Shown: piece by piece, positions 49,690-56,020 of the stretch
Position numbering within the stretch: position 1 is the first letter of the stretch
How the letters are laid out: each line of letters begins with the position of its first letter
Assembly (NCBI RefSeq): GCF_020832205.1
Contig: NZ_JAFIFD010000046.1
Location: 1-64,000, forward strand
Length of the DNA: 64,000 nt
Origin: Exiguobacterium sp.
Lineage (GTDB): Bacteria > Bacillota > Bacilli > Exiguobacteriales > Exiguobacteriaceae
Direction: 5' to 3'
The notes under the pieces: generated by a model
Told to the model about the DNA's origin: nothing
Seen by the model: only the letters and a program-made list of their open reading frames with translations
Database searches by the model: none
Program-made: the position numbers and the translations under genes

Positions 49690-50262
49690 TCAGTTGTTTG
49701 CTGCTTCTGTTGTTTCTGCCGCTTTTGTGCGGACCGTCTGCATCGCTTCCGTCCATGGGACGAGTTGGTCGAGCATATCGTTCACCGATTGGACTTGAAC
49801 GTCTTTCGGTGCGAAGTGTGTACCGTTCTCGAAGTCTGTGAAGAGCGAGAGTGCCGGGTGGACACGAACGTGAGCGATCAACAGCTCACTCAAGACACCG
49901 CGCAAGTGTTCTGTCGCCCGGGCACCGCCGACAGAACCGTACGAAACGATGCCTGCCGCTTTGTTATGCCATTCGTTGCGTAAGTAGTCGAGGGCGTTTT
50001 TGAGCGCACCTGTGATCGAGTGGTTGTATTCTTGAACGATGAAGACGAAACCGTCCATCTCAGCGATTTTCTCTGACCAGGCGCCAGCACCTGTCGCATC
50101 GCCGCCTGGTTCACCGAGGAGTGGCAAGCTGTAGTCGGCGATGTCGATGATTTCATAGTTGGCGTCACCGCGTTTGTCGGCGAGTTCTTTCACCCATTCT
50201 CCGACTTGCGGGCTGACGCGTCCTTCACGAGTAGATCCGAGTACGATTCCAATTTTCAACAT
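49690..50262 (-). CDS. NADPH-dependent FMN reductase
   Basis: Flavodoxin-like reductase of 190 residues from this start. IGIVLGSTREGR binds FMN phosphate, then EYNHSITGALKNALDYL and YGSVGGARA complete the site. Members reduce quinones, azo dyes or free flavin. The start at 50262 has AAGGAGGAACT. An alternative start at 50328 would add 22 residues and overlaps the upstream stop (ATGA) with a GAGGG site; both may be used. Last gene of the mhqR-type operon, fitting quinone detoxification. Confidence 0.88.
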   Translation of the reverse strand: MLKIGIVLGSTREGRVSPQVGEWVKELADKRGDANYEIIDIADYSLPLLGEPGGDATGAGAWSEKIAEMDGFVFIVQEYNHSITGALKNALDYLRNEWHNKAAGIVSYGSVGGARATEHLRGVLSELLIAHVRVHPALSLFTDFENGTHFAPKDVQVQSVNDMLDQLVPWTEAMQTVRTKAAETTEAANN

Positions 50263-50324
50263 AGTAGTTCCTCCTTGTAAGTTGGTTGCTTCTTCTTGTT
50301 TACCGAACAGACGATTGAAAAAAC

Positions 50325-51320
50325 TCATGATTTCATTCCCTCATATTCTTTCTCGAACGTTTTAGTGCTTCTGACCGTATCGATCGGCCGGACCATTGCT
50401 TCGATTTGTTCCCGCTTCGCTTCTAAGAACGGCGGGAGCGACAGCTTCTCACCGACTGTCTCGTACGGCTCATCACCCATGAATCCCGGTCCGTCTGTTG
50501 CCCATTCGAACAAGATTTGCGGTGCGACCCGTGCATACGACGATTCAAAGAAGAAGCGATCGACGTAACCAGACGTCGGTAACCCGAACTGTTGAAGTCG
50601 TGCCGTCCACTCATCGAGAACGCTGCGGTCGTCGACGCGGAAAGCGACGTGGTGTACCGTACCGAACCCTTGACGTGCTTGTGGTGACGTCTCGTCATGA
50701 ATGACGATGACTTGCGCTCCGTTTCCACCCTCACCTCCTTCAAAGAGATGCGCGTCGCCTTCTTGCCCGATTTCTTTGAACAACATGACTTGCTCCATCA
50801 CTTGTTTGAAATACGTGAAGTCCGCGACGCGGATGAAGATCGGACCGAGGCCAGTGATGGCGTATTCGAGCGGAATCGGCCCGTTTTGCCACGGCTCACC
50901 GGAAGCAATCCCGACGTTGAACTCGTCCGAGATGAGTTGATACGCCTGCTCATCGAAGTCGATGAACGAGAGCGTCTTCTTCCCGAACTGCTCGGTGATG
51001 CCCTCATGTTTCACACCGAGACGGTCGAAACGGCGCACCCAGTATGTGAGCGCCTCGTCGGTCGGGACGCGGAATGACGTCTTGGCGATCTCGTTCGTCC
51101 CGTGCACGCCTTTCGGGATACCCGGGAAGTCGAAAAACGTCATGTCTGTCCCAGCGCTGCCTTTGTCATCAGCGAAGAATAAGTGGTACGTCTGAATGTC
51201 ATCTTGGTTGACCGTCTTTTTGACGAGTCGCATACCGAGTACGTTCGTGAAGAAGTCGTAGTTCTTCTCGGCACTGCTCGTGATGGCCGTTACGTGGTGA
51301 ATCCCTTTTACATGGTTCAT
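50325..51320 (-). CDS. mhqO: Ring-cleaving dioxygenase (MhqA/MhqO type)
   Basis: Two-domain glyoxalase-fold protein of 331 residues. The first domain begins GIHHVTAITSSAEKNYDFFTNVLGMRLVKKTVNQDD, the exact family opening, and the second contains GTVHHVAFRV with the metal histidine; the final ligand is in ILFEWATDGPG (Glu). The family opens rings of hydroquinone-type compounds. AAAGGAG precedes the ATG. An operator-like palindrome lies 18 bases before the start, matching that before the MarR gene. MhqA and MhqO cannot be told apart by eye. Confidence 0.9.
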   Translation of the reverse strand: MNHVKGIHHVTAITSSAEKNYDFFTNVLGMRLVKKTVNQDDIQTYHLFFADDKGSAGTDMTFFDFPGIPKGVHGTNEIAKTSFRVPTDEALTYWVRRFDRLGVKHEGITEQFGKKTLSFIDFDEQAYQLISDEFNVGIASGEPWQNGPIPLEYAITGLGPIFIRVADFTYFKQVMEQVMLFKEIGQEGDAHLFEGGEGGNGAQVIVIHDETSPQARQGFGTVHHVAFRVDDRSVLDEWTARLQQFGLPTSGYVDRFFFESSYARVAPQILFEWATDGPGFMGDEPYETVGEKLSLPPFLEAKREQIEAMVRPIDTVRSTKTFEKEYEGMKS

Positions 51321-51338
51321 AGAAATCGCTCCTTTAAA

Positions 51339-51354
51339 ATCTTGATTTCGAGAT
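51339..51354. promoter_or_regulatory. MhqR-type operator, internal
   Basis: Minus strand ATCTCGAAATCAAGAT is a 16-base imperfect palindrome nearly identical to the known B. subtilis MhqR operator (ATCTcgaattcgAGAT). It sits between the regulator gene and the dioxygenase gene. Confidence 0.7.
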
Positions 51355-51356
51355 AA

Positions 51357-51791
51357 TTAATTAAAAAAATTTGACGCTTCGGCGCGCTTGCCGACCGTCT
51401 TCAATTGTGTGATTGTGTCATCTAGGTCGAGCCCATCGAACAGCTCATCGATTCGTCTCGCGTGGGCTGGGAAAATTTGATTCATCAAGTCGGTTCCCGT
51501 TTCGGTCAGTGCCGCATACGTGACACGCCGATCGCTCGGACACGCTTTTCGCTGCAAGTATCCTTTCGCCTCAAGCCGGTCGACGATATACGTCATGCTA
51601 CCGCTCGAGAGCAACACGTTCTTGCCGATCATTTGAATCGGTTGGTCGCCTTTATGGTAGAGCAGTTCGAGCACCGAAAACTCGGTCGGGTTCAAACCGT
51701 ACGCAGCGACTTCTTGCTTCACCATGTCTTGGATGGACTGTGAGGCCCGAAACAATACGGTGATCGCTTTTAACGCTTGCCGTTCTTCCAT
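51357..51791 (-). CDS. mhqR: MarR-family repressor (MhqR-like)
   Basis: Winged-helix regulator of 144 residues. Recognition region IGKNVLLSSGSMTYIVDRLEAKG and wing ACPSDRRVTYAALTETG are clear. It matches MhqR in length and context: its neighbours are a ring-cleaving dioxygenase and an FMN reductase, and two MhqR-type palindromes lie in the operon. In Bacillus, MhqR is released by hydroquinones and other electrophiles. ATG at 51791 follows AAAGGAGGGG. Confidence 0.88.
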   Translation of the reverse strand: MEERQALKAITVLFRASQSIQDMVKQEVAAYGLNPTEFSVLELLYHKGDQPIQMIGKNVLLSSGSMTYIVDRLEAKGYLQRKACPSDRRVTYAALTETGTDLMNQIFPAHARRIDELFDGLDLDDTITQLKTVGKRAEASNFFN

Positions 51792-51837
51792 GTGTTCCCC
51801 TCCTTTGCTGAGAGAAAACAATACTTTAAATTTAATT

Positions 51838-51895: not shown

Positions 51896-51924
51896 AAAAA
51901 ACAAGACGAGCGAACTCGTCTTGT
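51896..51924 (-). terminator. Terminator of SpeG-like GNAT gene
   Basis: ACAAGACGAG pairs with CTCGTCTTGT around four bases; six T follow leftward. Confidence 0.88.
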
Positions 51925-52358
51925 CATGTGCGGCGAATGACTGCCCTCTCACGGCCGAAGCGATGGCCCTCGTCCACAAAACCTAGGCTTGCGTATAACC
52001 GATGCGCGCCCGTATTGTCAGGGTGATAGCCGACGACGATCGGTTCAGGCCCGAACCGTCCCATTTCCTCAAGCATGAGCTCGGTCGCTTTCCGGCCAAT
52101 CCCTTTTCCTTGATGCGCGTGGTCGACCATGATGCGATACACCCAGCGCGCGTCCAACTCTTCGGGAACGGTGTTATACATGAGAAAGCCGACCATCGTC
52201 TCGTCCTCGTAGATGGCACGGGCCTCGAGCGTCGGTTCATACATCGCTTGCAGTAGAGAGATGGCGTTCGGTTCCATGTACGTCTGTTGCGTTTCGCTCA
52301 ACGTGAGCTGACAACACACATACCAGTTTTGTTCCGTGATCGGTTGAAGTGTGACCAT
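51924..52358 (-). CDS. GNAT acetyltransferase, polyamine type (BltD/SpeG-like)
   Basis: Protein of 144 residues. RIMVDHAHQGKGIGRKATELML binds acetyl-CoA; GYHPDNTGAHRLYASLGF and the C-terminal GRERAVIRR resemble spermine/spermidine acetyltransferases such as BltD, as does the region LQAMYEPTLEARAIYEDETMVGF in outline. ATG at 52358 is six bases after AAGGAG. Ten bases downstream of the CAT-TPR gene, so in the same transcript. Confidence 0.83.
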   Translation of the reverse strand: MVTLQPITEQNWYVCCQLTLSETQQTYMEPNAISLLQAMYEPTLEARAIYEDETMVGFLMYNTVPEELDARWVYRIMVDHAHQGKGIGRKATELMLEEMGRFGPEPIVVGYHPDNTGAHRLYASLGFVDEGHRFGRERAVIRRT

Positions 52359-52368
52359 TCGTGTCTCC

Positions 52369-53499
52369 TTACTCATATGTCTCGTCCAAGTTGCGCGCAT
52401 AGAAAGCGATGGCGCGGCGATAACGCGTGATGCTGTCATCAGGCTTCGGATTCGCGAGCAGTTCGAGCAATGCGCCGGTCGCTTCCGCATGGCGGCCGAG
52501 ATTGTAATGGGTCATCGCCCGGAACACTTTAAGCGCACCGATGTCCGGAAACTGTTCGATGGCTCGGGTGAACAGCTCTTCGGCGTCCTCATAGCGGCCG
52601 AGCGCCCGATACGTGCTGCCGAGACCGATGTATGTCTCACGGAGCTCATCTCCGGTGAGGCCGAGACGAATCGCCCGTTCATAGTGCGGGACGGCTTGAC
52701 CTTCTTCGCCGAGCGCGTCGTAACACGCGGCACAGTGGGCATGCAGGCGAGGGTTCTTTTCATCTTGCCGGAGCAACATGATAAACAACTGTTTCGCCCG
52801 CTCGAGCTCACCGTTCTCACGCAGGCGAATCGCTTCGTCGAGTCCTTTCTCTTCCGCCCGAATCGGCACTTGGAGATCACTCAAATCGTCGAGCCATACT
52901 TGGAGCCGTTCATAGTAGCGACCGACGTGCACACCGTCGACGAGCGCGTGATGCGCTTGAACCGAGAGCGGCATCGTCAGTCGGTCACCGGATGGCATAA
53001 ATTTGCCCCAGGCGATTCGCGGTACGCTGTCGTGTCGTTGGTCATGCGTCGGGTGGCTGATGCTTGTGAACGAGACCCACGGCACACTTGTGATGTAAAG
53101 AAGGTCGTCAGACTCCTCATCACCGACATAGACGTGTTGCTTTGCCTCTTCCATCCGCGCGGTCACGTCCTCCACGAATTGAGAAAACGTCTCTTTATAA
53201 GACACTGTGCAGAAATTGAAAACATCCTCATCCATCATGACGGTGAACGACGGATGGACGACGTCATGCTCGACGACTTCGTCGCCGCGCATCCGATACC
53301 GAAGCTCTGGAATCTCATTCGCCGTTTTGACCGCACCATACAAGAACAGCTTGAAAAACGACTGGCCGCTCGTTTTCGCGAGCGTATGTAGCTTCGTCAC
53401 GTCGACGTTCGCCGTCACGTTGAAGTGCGGTGCGTCAAACGATTTGAAGAACTCATAATGTTTCTTTCGTGGCCACGTCTCCATTTGAATGCGTTTCAT
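52369..53499 (-). CDS. CAT-like acetyltransferase fused to TPR domain
   Basis: Single frame of 376 residues with two parts. Residues 1-210 match type-A chloramphenicol acetyltransferase in length and order: FDAPHFNVTANVDVT near the start, WVSFTSISHP in the middle and QAHHALVDGVHVGRYYE, where His184 would be the catalytic base and Asp188 the structural acid. Residues 218-376 are tetratricopeptide repeats like the stand-alone TPR_5 proteins (YYxLGxxYRALGRYEDAEEL-type units). Normal CATs have about 220 residues and no such tail. The ATG follows AGGGGG. Chloramphenicol need not be the substrate. Confidence 0.85.
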   Translation of the reverse strand: MKRIQMETWPRKKHYEFFKSFDAPHFNVTANVDVTKLHTLAKTSGQSFFKLFLYGAVKTANEIPELRYRMRGDEVVEHDVVHPSFTVMMDEDVFNFCTVSYKETFSQFVEDVTARMEEAKQHVYVGDEESDDLLYITSVPWVSFTSISHPTHDQRHDSVPRIAWGKFMPSGDRLTMPLSVQAHHALVDGVHVGRYYERLQVWLDDLSDLQVPIRAEEKGLDEAIRLRENGELERAKQLFIMLLRQDEKNPRLHAHCAACYDALGEEGQAVPHYERAIRLGLTGDELRETYIGLGSTYRALGRYEDAEELFTRAIEQFPDIGALKVFRAMTHYNLGRHAEATGALLELLANPKPDDSITRYRRAIAFYARNLDETYE

Positions 53500-53548: not shown

Positions 53549-54088
53549 TCAAAGTTTTTGCTTCAACACGTCGTAATGCCCTCTCGCCAAATCAAAGTAG
53601 ACGAAGTCCTTTCGATCAATCCGTTGAAGCGTCTCTTCAAAATCTCGCCATCCTCTCTCGACGAGTTCAGGTGTCAGTTCACCTGACTGTGCCGCCGCTT
53701 CAAATTCATCCTCGTCTTTACGAACAACGTCCCCGTTCGGGAAGACCAAAATGTCGAGCAACAGATCGTCCATATAGGGGATCCCGTCCTCATACCCGAT
53801 CGCTTCGACGATGTCGATGTACCATTGGACAATCTTTCCGTTGTCATCGAACATGACCGTCACTCCGAACGGTTCATCGTCCGGAAAATATTGGAGCCAG
53901 GCATAGCCCCCATCGGCGACGATGAATTCTTCACCTTTATGCTGTTTATATTGCGGGTCCCGGACAGCGTCAATTTGAAACAAAGCGACCGTGCCAGAGA
54001 AACGGTCATCGTGGACGGCCATTTGGGCGTAACGATTCTCGCGGATTCGTTCCCAGTCTCGGCGGTTGGCAAATTTTCGTTTTGGCAT
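53549..54088 (-). CDS. DUF402-family nucleotide phosphatase-like protein
   Basis: Protein of 179 residues. The DUF402 core is clear: DNGKIVQWYIDIVEAIG, DLLLDILVFPNGDVVRKDEDEFEAA and SGELTPE, with the conserved acidic residues that bind metal. Characterised relatives (YgaC/Sa1684, FomD) hydrolyse nucleoside di- or triphosphates. ATG at 54088 follows AAAGGAG. No partner gene is evident. Confidence 0.88.
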   Translation of the reverse strand: MPKRKFANRRDWERIRENRYAQMAVHDDRFSGTVALFQIDAVRDPQYKQHKGEEFIVADGGYAWLQYFPDDEPFGVTVMFDDNGKIVQWYIDIVEAIGYEDGIPYMDDLLLDILVFPNGDVVRKDEDEFEAAAQSGELTPELVERGWRDFEETLQRIDRKDFVYFDLARGHYDVLKQKL

Positions 54089-55048: not shown

Positions 55049-56020
55049 TCACGCCCCACGACGCTTCAAGTCCCGATATTCCAACCATAAGTTGAGCCAT
55101 TGGGCCGGCTTGTCGCTCGATTCGGACGGATCACCCCGATAGCGGTTCACATATACATGCCACGACAGGGCCCGGTAGACGCAACCGAGCTCTTCAGCGA
55201 TTAACAAGTGACGCCACAACACGTCCGATGGCGCAATCCCTTCCCATTCCGTCAAGTAGACGGTACGCATTTTCTGAATTTGTTCATACCAGGCGACTTC
55301 ATCGTCTTCCGGCAACAAGTCGTACAGCGCGTTCCAAAACACACGGACGCTGAAGAACGGATGGGTGACCGTCGCGTCGCCCCAATCAAGAATGCATAAG
55401 TCATCCGCCTGCTCGCGCCAAAAGATGTTACCGCCATGCAAATCGCCGTGCTCAAGACTCATCGGCACCCCAGTCGCGAGCTCGTCGCACATGGTGAGGA
55501 GCTCGTCTCGGAGCGCCAGCACCGCATCTGCCTTCTCTTGATTTAACCCTGTGCATAGCTCAGGCAAATACATCCGAATCTCTTCTTTCAGACGAGCCGG
55601 ACGCCGGTCTGGGATACCATAACTTAACAGCTCATCGACGTGCGCTGTCTCCTGCCGCTGCAGCTTGGCGTATTGCCGCAAAGAAGTTTCATATCGGCTC
55701 AACGTCGCATGTTCACGTAATGCCTCACCCTCGATGTCTCGCAGAAGCAGCCATCCTTGCACAACATCGATTGCGACGACTTCTGGGACGAGACCTGGGT
55801 GGCGCCTAGCTAGACGTAACGTCAGTTCCGCCTCGCCTTCACTGATCGGCGTCACCGCTTTGGCGTAAAAACGTTTCCCATCACTCTCGGTCCAGACCAC
55901 ATATGTCAAATCCGTATCTTTCGCGATTGACCACTTGGCCCCATGTACGTACGTCTCGAGCCACGTATGGAATCGGTGAAGCATCTCCGGGTTTCGCCAC
56001 GGAGCCCCATGTTTCATCAT
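55049..56020 (-). CDS. APH-family phosphotransferase
   Basis: Kinase-fold protein of 323 residues in the aminoglycoside/choline phosphotransferase superfamily. The catalytic loop SLEHGDLHGGNIFW and metal motif LDWGDATVTHPFF are intact; the hinge region is VQGWLLLRDIEG. Such genes are common in Bacilli and seldom act on antibiotics; the substrate may be a small alcohol. AAGGGGG precedes the double ATG start. Confidence 0.86.
   Translation of the reverse strand: MMKHGAPWRNPEMLHRFHTWLETYVHGAKWSIAKDTDLTYVVWTESDGKRFYAKAVTPISEGEAELTLRLARRHPGLVPEVVAIDVVQGWLLLRDIEGEALREHATLSRYETSLRQYAKLQRQETAHVDELLSYGIPDRRPARLKEEIRMYLPELCTGLNQEKADAVLALRDELLTMCDELATGVPMSLEHGDLHGGNIFWREQADDLCILDWGDATVTHPFFSVRVFWNALYDLLPEDDEVAWYEQIQKMRTVYLTEWEGIAPSDVLWRHLLIAEELGCVYRALSWHVYVNRYRGDPSESSDKPAQWLNLWLEYRDLKRRGA

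Follow-up and report, generated by a model that had tools for sequence, protein, structure and literature searches.

A single gene of Exiguobacterium sp. joins a chloramphenicol acetyltransferase (CAT)-like acyltransferase domain to a tetratricopeptide (TPR) domain of the TPR_5 family, and acyltransferases recur as fusion partners of TPR_5, in at least six lineages by our reading of the sequences, which is the new observation of this analysis. The gene lies on the reverse strand of the window, the 64,000-nucleotide stretch of DNA that was analysed. With roughly even confidence, we read the product as a CAT-like acyltransferase tethered to a TPR module that would recruit it by binding a partner or ligand. 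The observations beneath this explanation are the fusion and its conservation, the identity of the domains, the catalytic residues, the changed pocket, the recurrence of such fusions and the invariant TPR_5 residues.

The fused reading frame and its conservation

The frame occupies window 52369–53499 and encodes 376 amino acids plus a stop codon, with its ATG at 53499 and its stop at 52371–52369. The features of the gene and its surroundings, from upstream to downstream, are:

53549..54088, reverse strand: DUF402 gene, co-directional, 49 bp upstream of the fusion and syntenic across the genus
52369..53499, reverse strand: CAT-TPR fusion coding sequence, 376 residues plus stop
52888..53499, reverse strand: CAT-fold O-acyltransferase domain, residues 1–204 (Pfam CAT 128.6 bits; fold match to 3cla, Z 24.3)
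52933..52953, reverse strand: catalytic motif HHALVDG, residues 183–189, invariant in 17 genus sequences
52843..52887, reverse strand: variable flexible linker, residues 205–219 (pLDDT below 50 at 212–217; dN/dS 0.65)
52867..52869, reverse strand: possible internal GTG start, codon 211, with a putative Shine-Dalgarno (SD) sequence of moderate strength (-8.8 kcal/mol)
52372..52842, reverse strand: TPR_5 (BH0479-type) domain, residues 220–376, four TPR repeats (Pfam 66 bits; 3k9i, E 4e-31)
51924..52358, reverse strand: GNAT acetyltransferase gene, 144 residues, ten bases after the fusion, its SD sequence overlapping the fusion stop
51900..51925, reverse strand: intrinsic terminator-like hairpin of 11 pairs plus a T run, after the GNAT gene

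A preliminary description of this DNA had seen a complete CAT-type domain and a TPR domain in one uninterrupted frame, and the exact frame, the motif at residues 183–189 and the profile, structure and model comparisons all agree with it. The Pfam CAT model (PF00302) aligns with residues 2–200 at 128.6 bits (cut-off 23.5), covering profile positions 4–205 of 205, while TPR_5 (PF12688) aligns with residues 257–371 at 66.2 bits (cut-off 24.2), alongside many further TPR models. A sequence search of the PDB matched residues 4–201 to CAT III (E 3e-31) and residues 262–375 to Bacillus halodurans BH0479 (3k9i, E 4e-31). Fold comparison of an AlphaFold model of the fusion protein, built on 51 relatives (mean pLDDT 86, pTM 0.57), placed CAT III (3cla) on residues 1–209 with a Z score of 24.3 and a consensus TPR on residues 216–352 with a Z score of 17.7. 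With this pTM, and with linker residues 212–217 disordered (pLDDT below 50), the arrangement of the two domains is not fixed and they are loosely joined.

Seventeen of the 19 Exiguobacterium genomes have the whole frame uninterrupted, at 73–100% identity. In another (G015) the gene is interrupted solely by contig ends, and in the last (G003) the TPR part stands alone at the locus, the CAT part is gone, and a search of the whole G003 genome found no CAT domain. The junction is thus conserved among relatives. Averaged over sequence pairs, dN/dS comes to 0.10 in the CAT part, 0.06 in the TPR part and 0.65 in the linker: purifying selection acts strongly on either domain, whereas the linker is relaxed. 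Among 398 sampled genomes of the class, covering 145 genera, the fusion is confined to Exiguobacterium; elsewhere in this sample the relatives are separate proteins, with identities of up to 58% for CAT and 48% for TPR, bearing out the earlier view that the two parts are normally separate. That an assembly error or frameshift joined two genes is ruled out by the single frame kept across the genus, and we give it practically no credence: the layout is identical in 17 independent genomes, and the separate TPR gene of G003 sits in a genome without any CAT. An origin from a mobile element or plasmid was also rejected, as a DNA search of plasmids gave no match and no plasmid record holding the fusion was found. 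Viral contigs searched for the fusion contained none, and defence-system models gave a generic TPR match only.

In a tree of the TPR part, G003 lies beside the aestuarii-type clade (support 99/99; genus clade 100/99). Since the fusion occurs in each of the two other groups of the genus, it predates their split, and the CAT part was lost in G003. The G003 TPR gene starts at a GTG with an SD sequence of its own, and the GNAT gene is missing at this locus, so that TPR_5 has a function needing neither enzyme. A decayed CAT remnant upstream of the G003 TPR gene is not claimed, as 16 of 500 shuffles score as high. All six aestuarii-type fusions carry, at codon 214, a GTG whose SD sequence (-10.5 to -16.0 kcal/mol) equals or nearly equals in strength the one at the true start; in each of these genomes 5–10% of synonymous draws are as strong, and it is suggestive only that an internal start at the junction makes free TPR in this clade. 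In most of the window's own clade, the internal start at the junction is weak or absent. From the solitary G003 gene and the possible free TPR of the aestuarii-type clade we conclude that the TPR half has a use of its own.

Catalytic residues and acceptor pocket of the CAT half

Alignment with CAT III equates R11, H184 and D188 of the fusion with R18, H195 and D199, and Thr137 replaces Ser148. Both the HHxxxDG motif and the partner equivalent to Arg18 that mark type A CATs (CatA) are therefore present, H184, D188 and R11 are invariant in the genus, and the fold is shared over residues 1–209 with CAT III (3cla) and CAT I (1pd5) at a Z score of about 24. The pocket differs: at the CAT III positions Q92, N146, Y168 and I172, whose numbering was anchored by the mutant list of 1qca, the aligned residues are S84, Y135, D157 and R161, of which S84, D157 and R161 do not vary within the genus. 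The closest CAT relatives of the fusion are stand-alone proteins of other Bacilli with 50–58% identity, and in the aligned rows shown the DSVPRIAW stretch is common to the nearest of them, with one conservative change in one relative.

These features bear on whether the gene encodes a chloramphenicol acetyltransferase that inactivates the antibiotic and carries its tail incidentally. The retained CAT fold, the conserved equivalents of H195, D199 and R18, and the threonine in place of Ser148 would be compatible with such an enzyme. However, the protein scores 131.3 bits against the CatA equivalog cut-off of 270 (NF000491), is about 30% identical to CatA, and has a rewired pocket and an added C-terminal TPR domain; the gene is chromosomal and syntenic across the genus, and plasmid CATs, among the matches listed, are all less than 40% identical to the CAT part. 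Its best NCBIfam match, the CatA-like O-acetyltransferases of family 1 (NF033155), reaches 136 bits over residues 3–203, far below the cut-off of 300. We therefore regard a resistance enzyme as very improbable. The changed pocket and the score far below the CatA cut-off make chloramphenicol an unlikely natural acceptor of the CAT half, and the earlier proposal of a role other than antibiotic inactivation appears likely on the same comparisons. In the portions of the literature available to us, we found no paper on a CAT-TPR fusion, and those on Exiguobacterium CATs were general surveys.

TPR_5 fusions and the proposed role of the tethered module

TPR_5 is widespread in Bacilli as a protein of about 160 residues, with records also in, for example, Vibrio and Streptomyces. 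The BH0479-type proteins (3k9i, B. halodurans) belong to this family and have the same invariant D, S, R and N as the fusion, although they usually stand alone, at about 160 residues; no paper on BH0479 was found in our literature search. Across 153 distinct TPR_5 sequences, D261, S295 and R298 never vary and N333 is kept in 99%. In 75 members fetched without the use of sequence patterns, fused or free, the four residues are conserved at 100, 100, 100 and 97%, and R227 at 89%; all four are kept in the fused members checked. By canonical TPR numbering we place them at positions 9, 12 and 13 of helix A, positions that usually point towards the concave side of a TPR domain. Their near-invariance suggests a ligand shared by fused and free TPR_5 proteins, and is the main reason for proposing one. 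At codon 258 (window 52726–52728), a putative groove position, this species has Ala; the other aligned genus members differ, mostly with Trp, which occupies the position in 69% of the pattern-free set.

A search for extra domains at several hundred TPR_5 loci showed an acyltransferase partner in six or more lineages, CAT in one and differing GNATs in five, in both domain orders, in addition to fusions with other partners:

CAT-TPR: Exiguobacterium
Acetyltransf_3 GNAT-TPR: the sister genus, with TPR alone at the same locus in other species of that genus
AAC(6')-like GNAT-TPR: Rossellomorea (L146, L158, L251–L253)
RimJ-type GNAT-TPR: Paenibacillus
TPR-GNAT, reverse order: Ectobacillus antri, and genome G941
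HAD-TPR: genome G153 (L066), with a beta-phosphoglucomutase-like HAD hydrolase
TPR_5 extended at its C-terminus by about 200 residues, with no Pfam match: L071 and L072

Compared between fusion lineages, the GNAT domains are no more than about 25% identical over any stretch of substantial length. Independence of the fusions, which are few events, was judged from trees and from this dissimilarity. An acyltransferase is the partner in six of eight TPR_5 fusions (P ~4e-5 if partners were drawn at the 11% rate of GNAT neighbours, treating the eight as independent and computed after the pattern was noticed). Stand-alone TPR_5 genes showed no enrichment of GNATs beside them (12 of 109 immediate neighbours and 12 of 145 farther genes in the same loci), and their neighbourhoods look rich in small modifying enzymes such as NUDIX proteins, hydrolases and nucleotidyltransferases. 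Adjacency thus proves nothing, and the fusion pattern may partly reflect GNAT-rich neighbourhoods. The joining of TPR_5 to unrelated acetyltransferases on at least six separate occasions makes it probable that the family serves such enzymes as a dedicated partner or sensor module and does not belong to an antibiotic-resistance gene. A TPR family with a solved structure and no assigned function thereby gains a testable link to acetyltransferases of two unrelated folds.

Reverse-order TPR_5-GNAT genes occur at loci L187, L249, L250 and L254. The AAC(6')-like and TPR genes of Rossellomorea and relatives are fused at L146, L158 and L251–L253 and adjacent, 18–19 nt apart, at L178 and L260–L262; the fused AAC(6')-like domains score below NCBIfam cut-offs, and resistance screens could flag them. 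Both these and the CAT-like domains joined to TPR_5 could pass for resistance genes. At L263 (genome G271, sister genus), a truncated TPR adjoins an N-terminal fragment resembling GNAT, which looks like a GNAT-TPR fusion in decay.

In the explanation that we favour, the Exiguobacterium protein would belong to a CatA-like subfamily of CAT-fold acyltransferases, be encoded on the chromosome and probably form trimers as CAT does. It would probably use acetyl-CoA, with His184, Asp188 and Arg11 as its catalytic machinery, to modify an acceptor different from chloramphenicol. The flexible linker would tether this enzyme to the TPR_5 domain, whose putative groove (R227, D261, S295, R298 and N333) may bind a conserved ligand or partner, bringing the acceptor to the active site or tying the enzyme to a partner complex. 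A recruiting module associated with acyltransferases, joined elsewhere in Bacilli to GNATs, would then have acquired a CAT-fold enzyme in Exiguobacterium. The preliminary description had proposed that the TPR tail brings the acetyltransferase to a protein partner; the recurrent fusions strengthen this as a plausible role.

The halves may instead have two independent functions, a CAT-like gene beside a resident TPR gene having lost its stop codon, with the tail of no influence on the enzyme and the arrangement kept mainly by descent. G003, sister to the aestuarii-type clade (99/99), keeps the TPR without any CAT, the codon-214 GTG and SD sequence suggest that the six aestuarii-type fusions also yield free TPR, and the neighbours of stand-alone TPR_5 genes are varied. 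Yet the fusion is kept in 18 of 19 species with both domains constrained, acyltransferases are strongly over-represented among TPR_5 fusions, and the window's own clade has not conserved a strong internal start; on this balance we hold independence to be rather unlikely. A ligand-sensing TPR domain that switches the acyltransferase on and off seems more doubtful still. Invariant polar residues at canonical concave-face positions in fused and free members would suit such a sensor, as would the occurrence of both domain orders, expected of a tethered regulator, but the flexible, unconserved linker (pLDDT below 50, dN/dS 0.65) argues against tight allosteric coupling. The precedent would be the ACT-GNAT enzymes, amino-acid-regulated protein acetyltransferases in which ACT domains act as an on/off switch (PMC6434083). 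These likewise combine an acetyltransferase with a non-catalytic ligand-binding domain, whereas both the binding domain and the catalytic fold are different, so that the likeness is one of principle only (PMC6434083).

A broader form of the recruitment reading, which we consider improbable, is that TPR_5 is a general acetyltransferase partner module of Bacilli, hard-wired to CAT-fold and GNAT-fold enzymes, whose groove would recognise one common carrier, for example a peptide, a protein terminus or a CoA-linked molecule. In eukaryotic NatA, the TPR subunit Naa15 is paired with the GNAT Naa10 and binds both the catalytic subunit and its substrate. There the TPR subunit is large and separate and the enzyme has the GNAT fold, and the likeness is one of analogy. 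If the broader form were true, TPR_5 would play in bacteria, in principle, the part that auxiliary TPR subunits play for the N-terminal acetyltransferases of eukaryotes. A search for the ligand has a ready pair in the fusion, and in G003 nature has already deleted the enzyme half.

The downstream GNAT gene and the surrounding locus

The order DUF402, CAT-TPR, GNAT, MarR and ring-cleaving dioxygenase is common to both deep clades of the genus. The GNAT gene starts with an ATG at 52358, and its ribosome-binding site has the sequence TAAGGAG and overlaps the stop codon of the fusion. A promoter-like site was not found between DUF402 and the fusion, the only one in the region preceding marR. This, together with the terminator after the GNAT gene and the overlap of SD sequence and stop codon, makes it likely that DUF402, CAT-TPR and GNAT form one transcript unit. 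The earlier placement of a second acyltransferase in the same transcript is thus likely here and does not extend to the whole genus: of 13 genus genomes checked, 4 have no GNAT gene directly behind the fusion, and G003 lacks it as well, which indicates an optional rather than a fixed partner. Its spacing of ten bases was described correctly, but its designation as a polyamine-type enzyme holds at the level of distant similarity only: the best PDB match, the spermine/spermidine acetyltransferase 2fl4, is distant (E 7e-12), and the protein reaches 16.5 bits where the PaiA cut-off is 250.

Further upstream of DUF402, on the same strand, lies an APH-family phosphotransferase-like gene (window 55049–56020). 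On the other side, window 49690–51794 holds genes for a MarR regulator, a ring-cleaving dioxygenase/glyoxalase and an NADPH-FMN-reductase-like protein, a conserved unit next door whose layout resembles the MhqR quinone-detoxification arrangement of B. subtilis.
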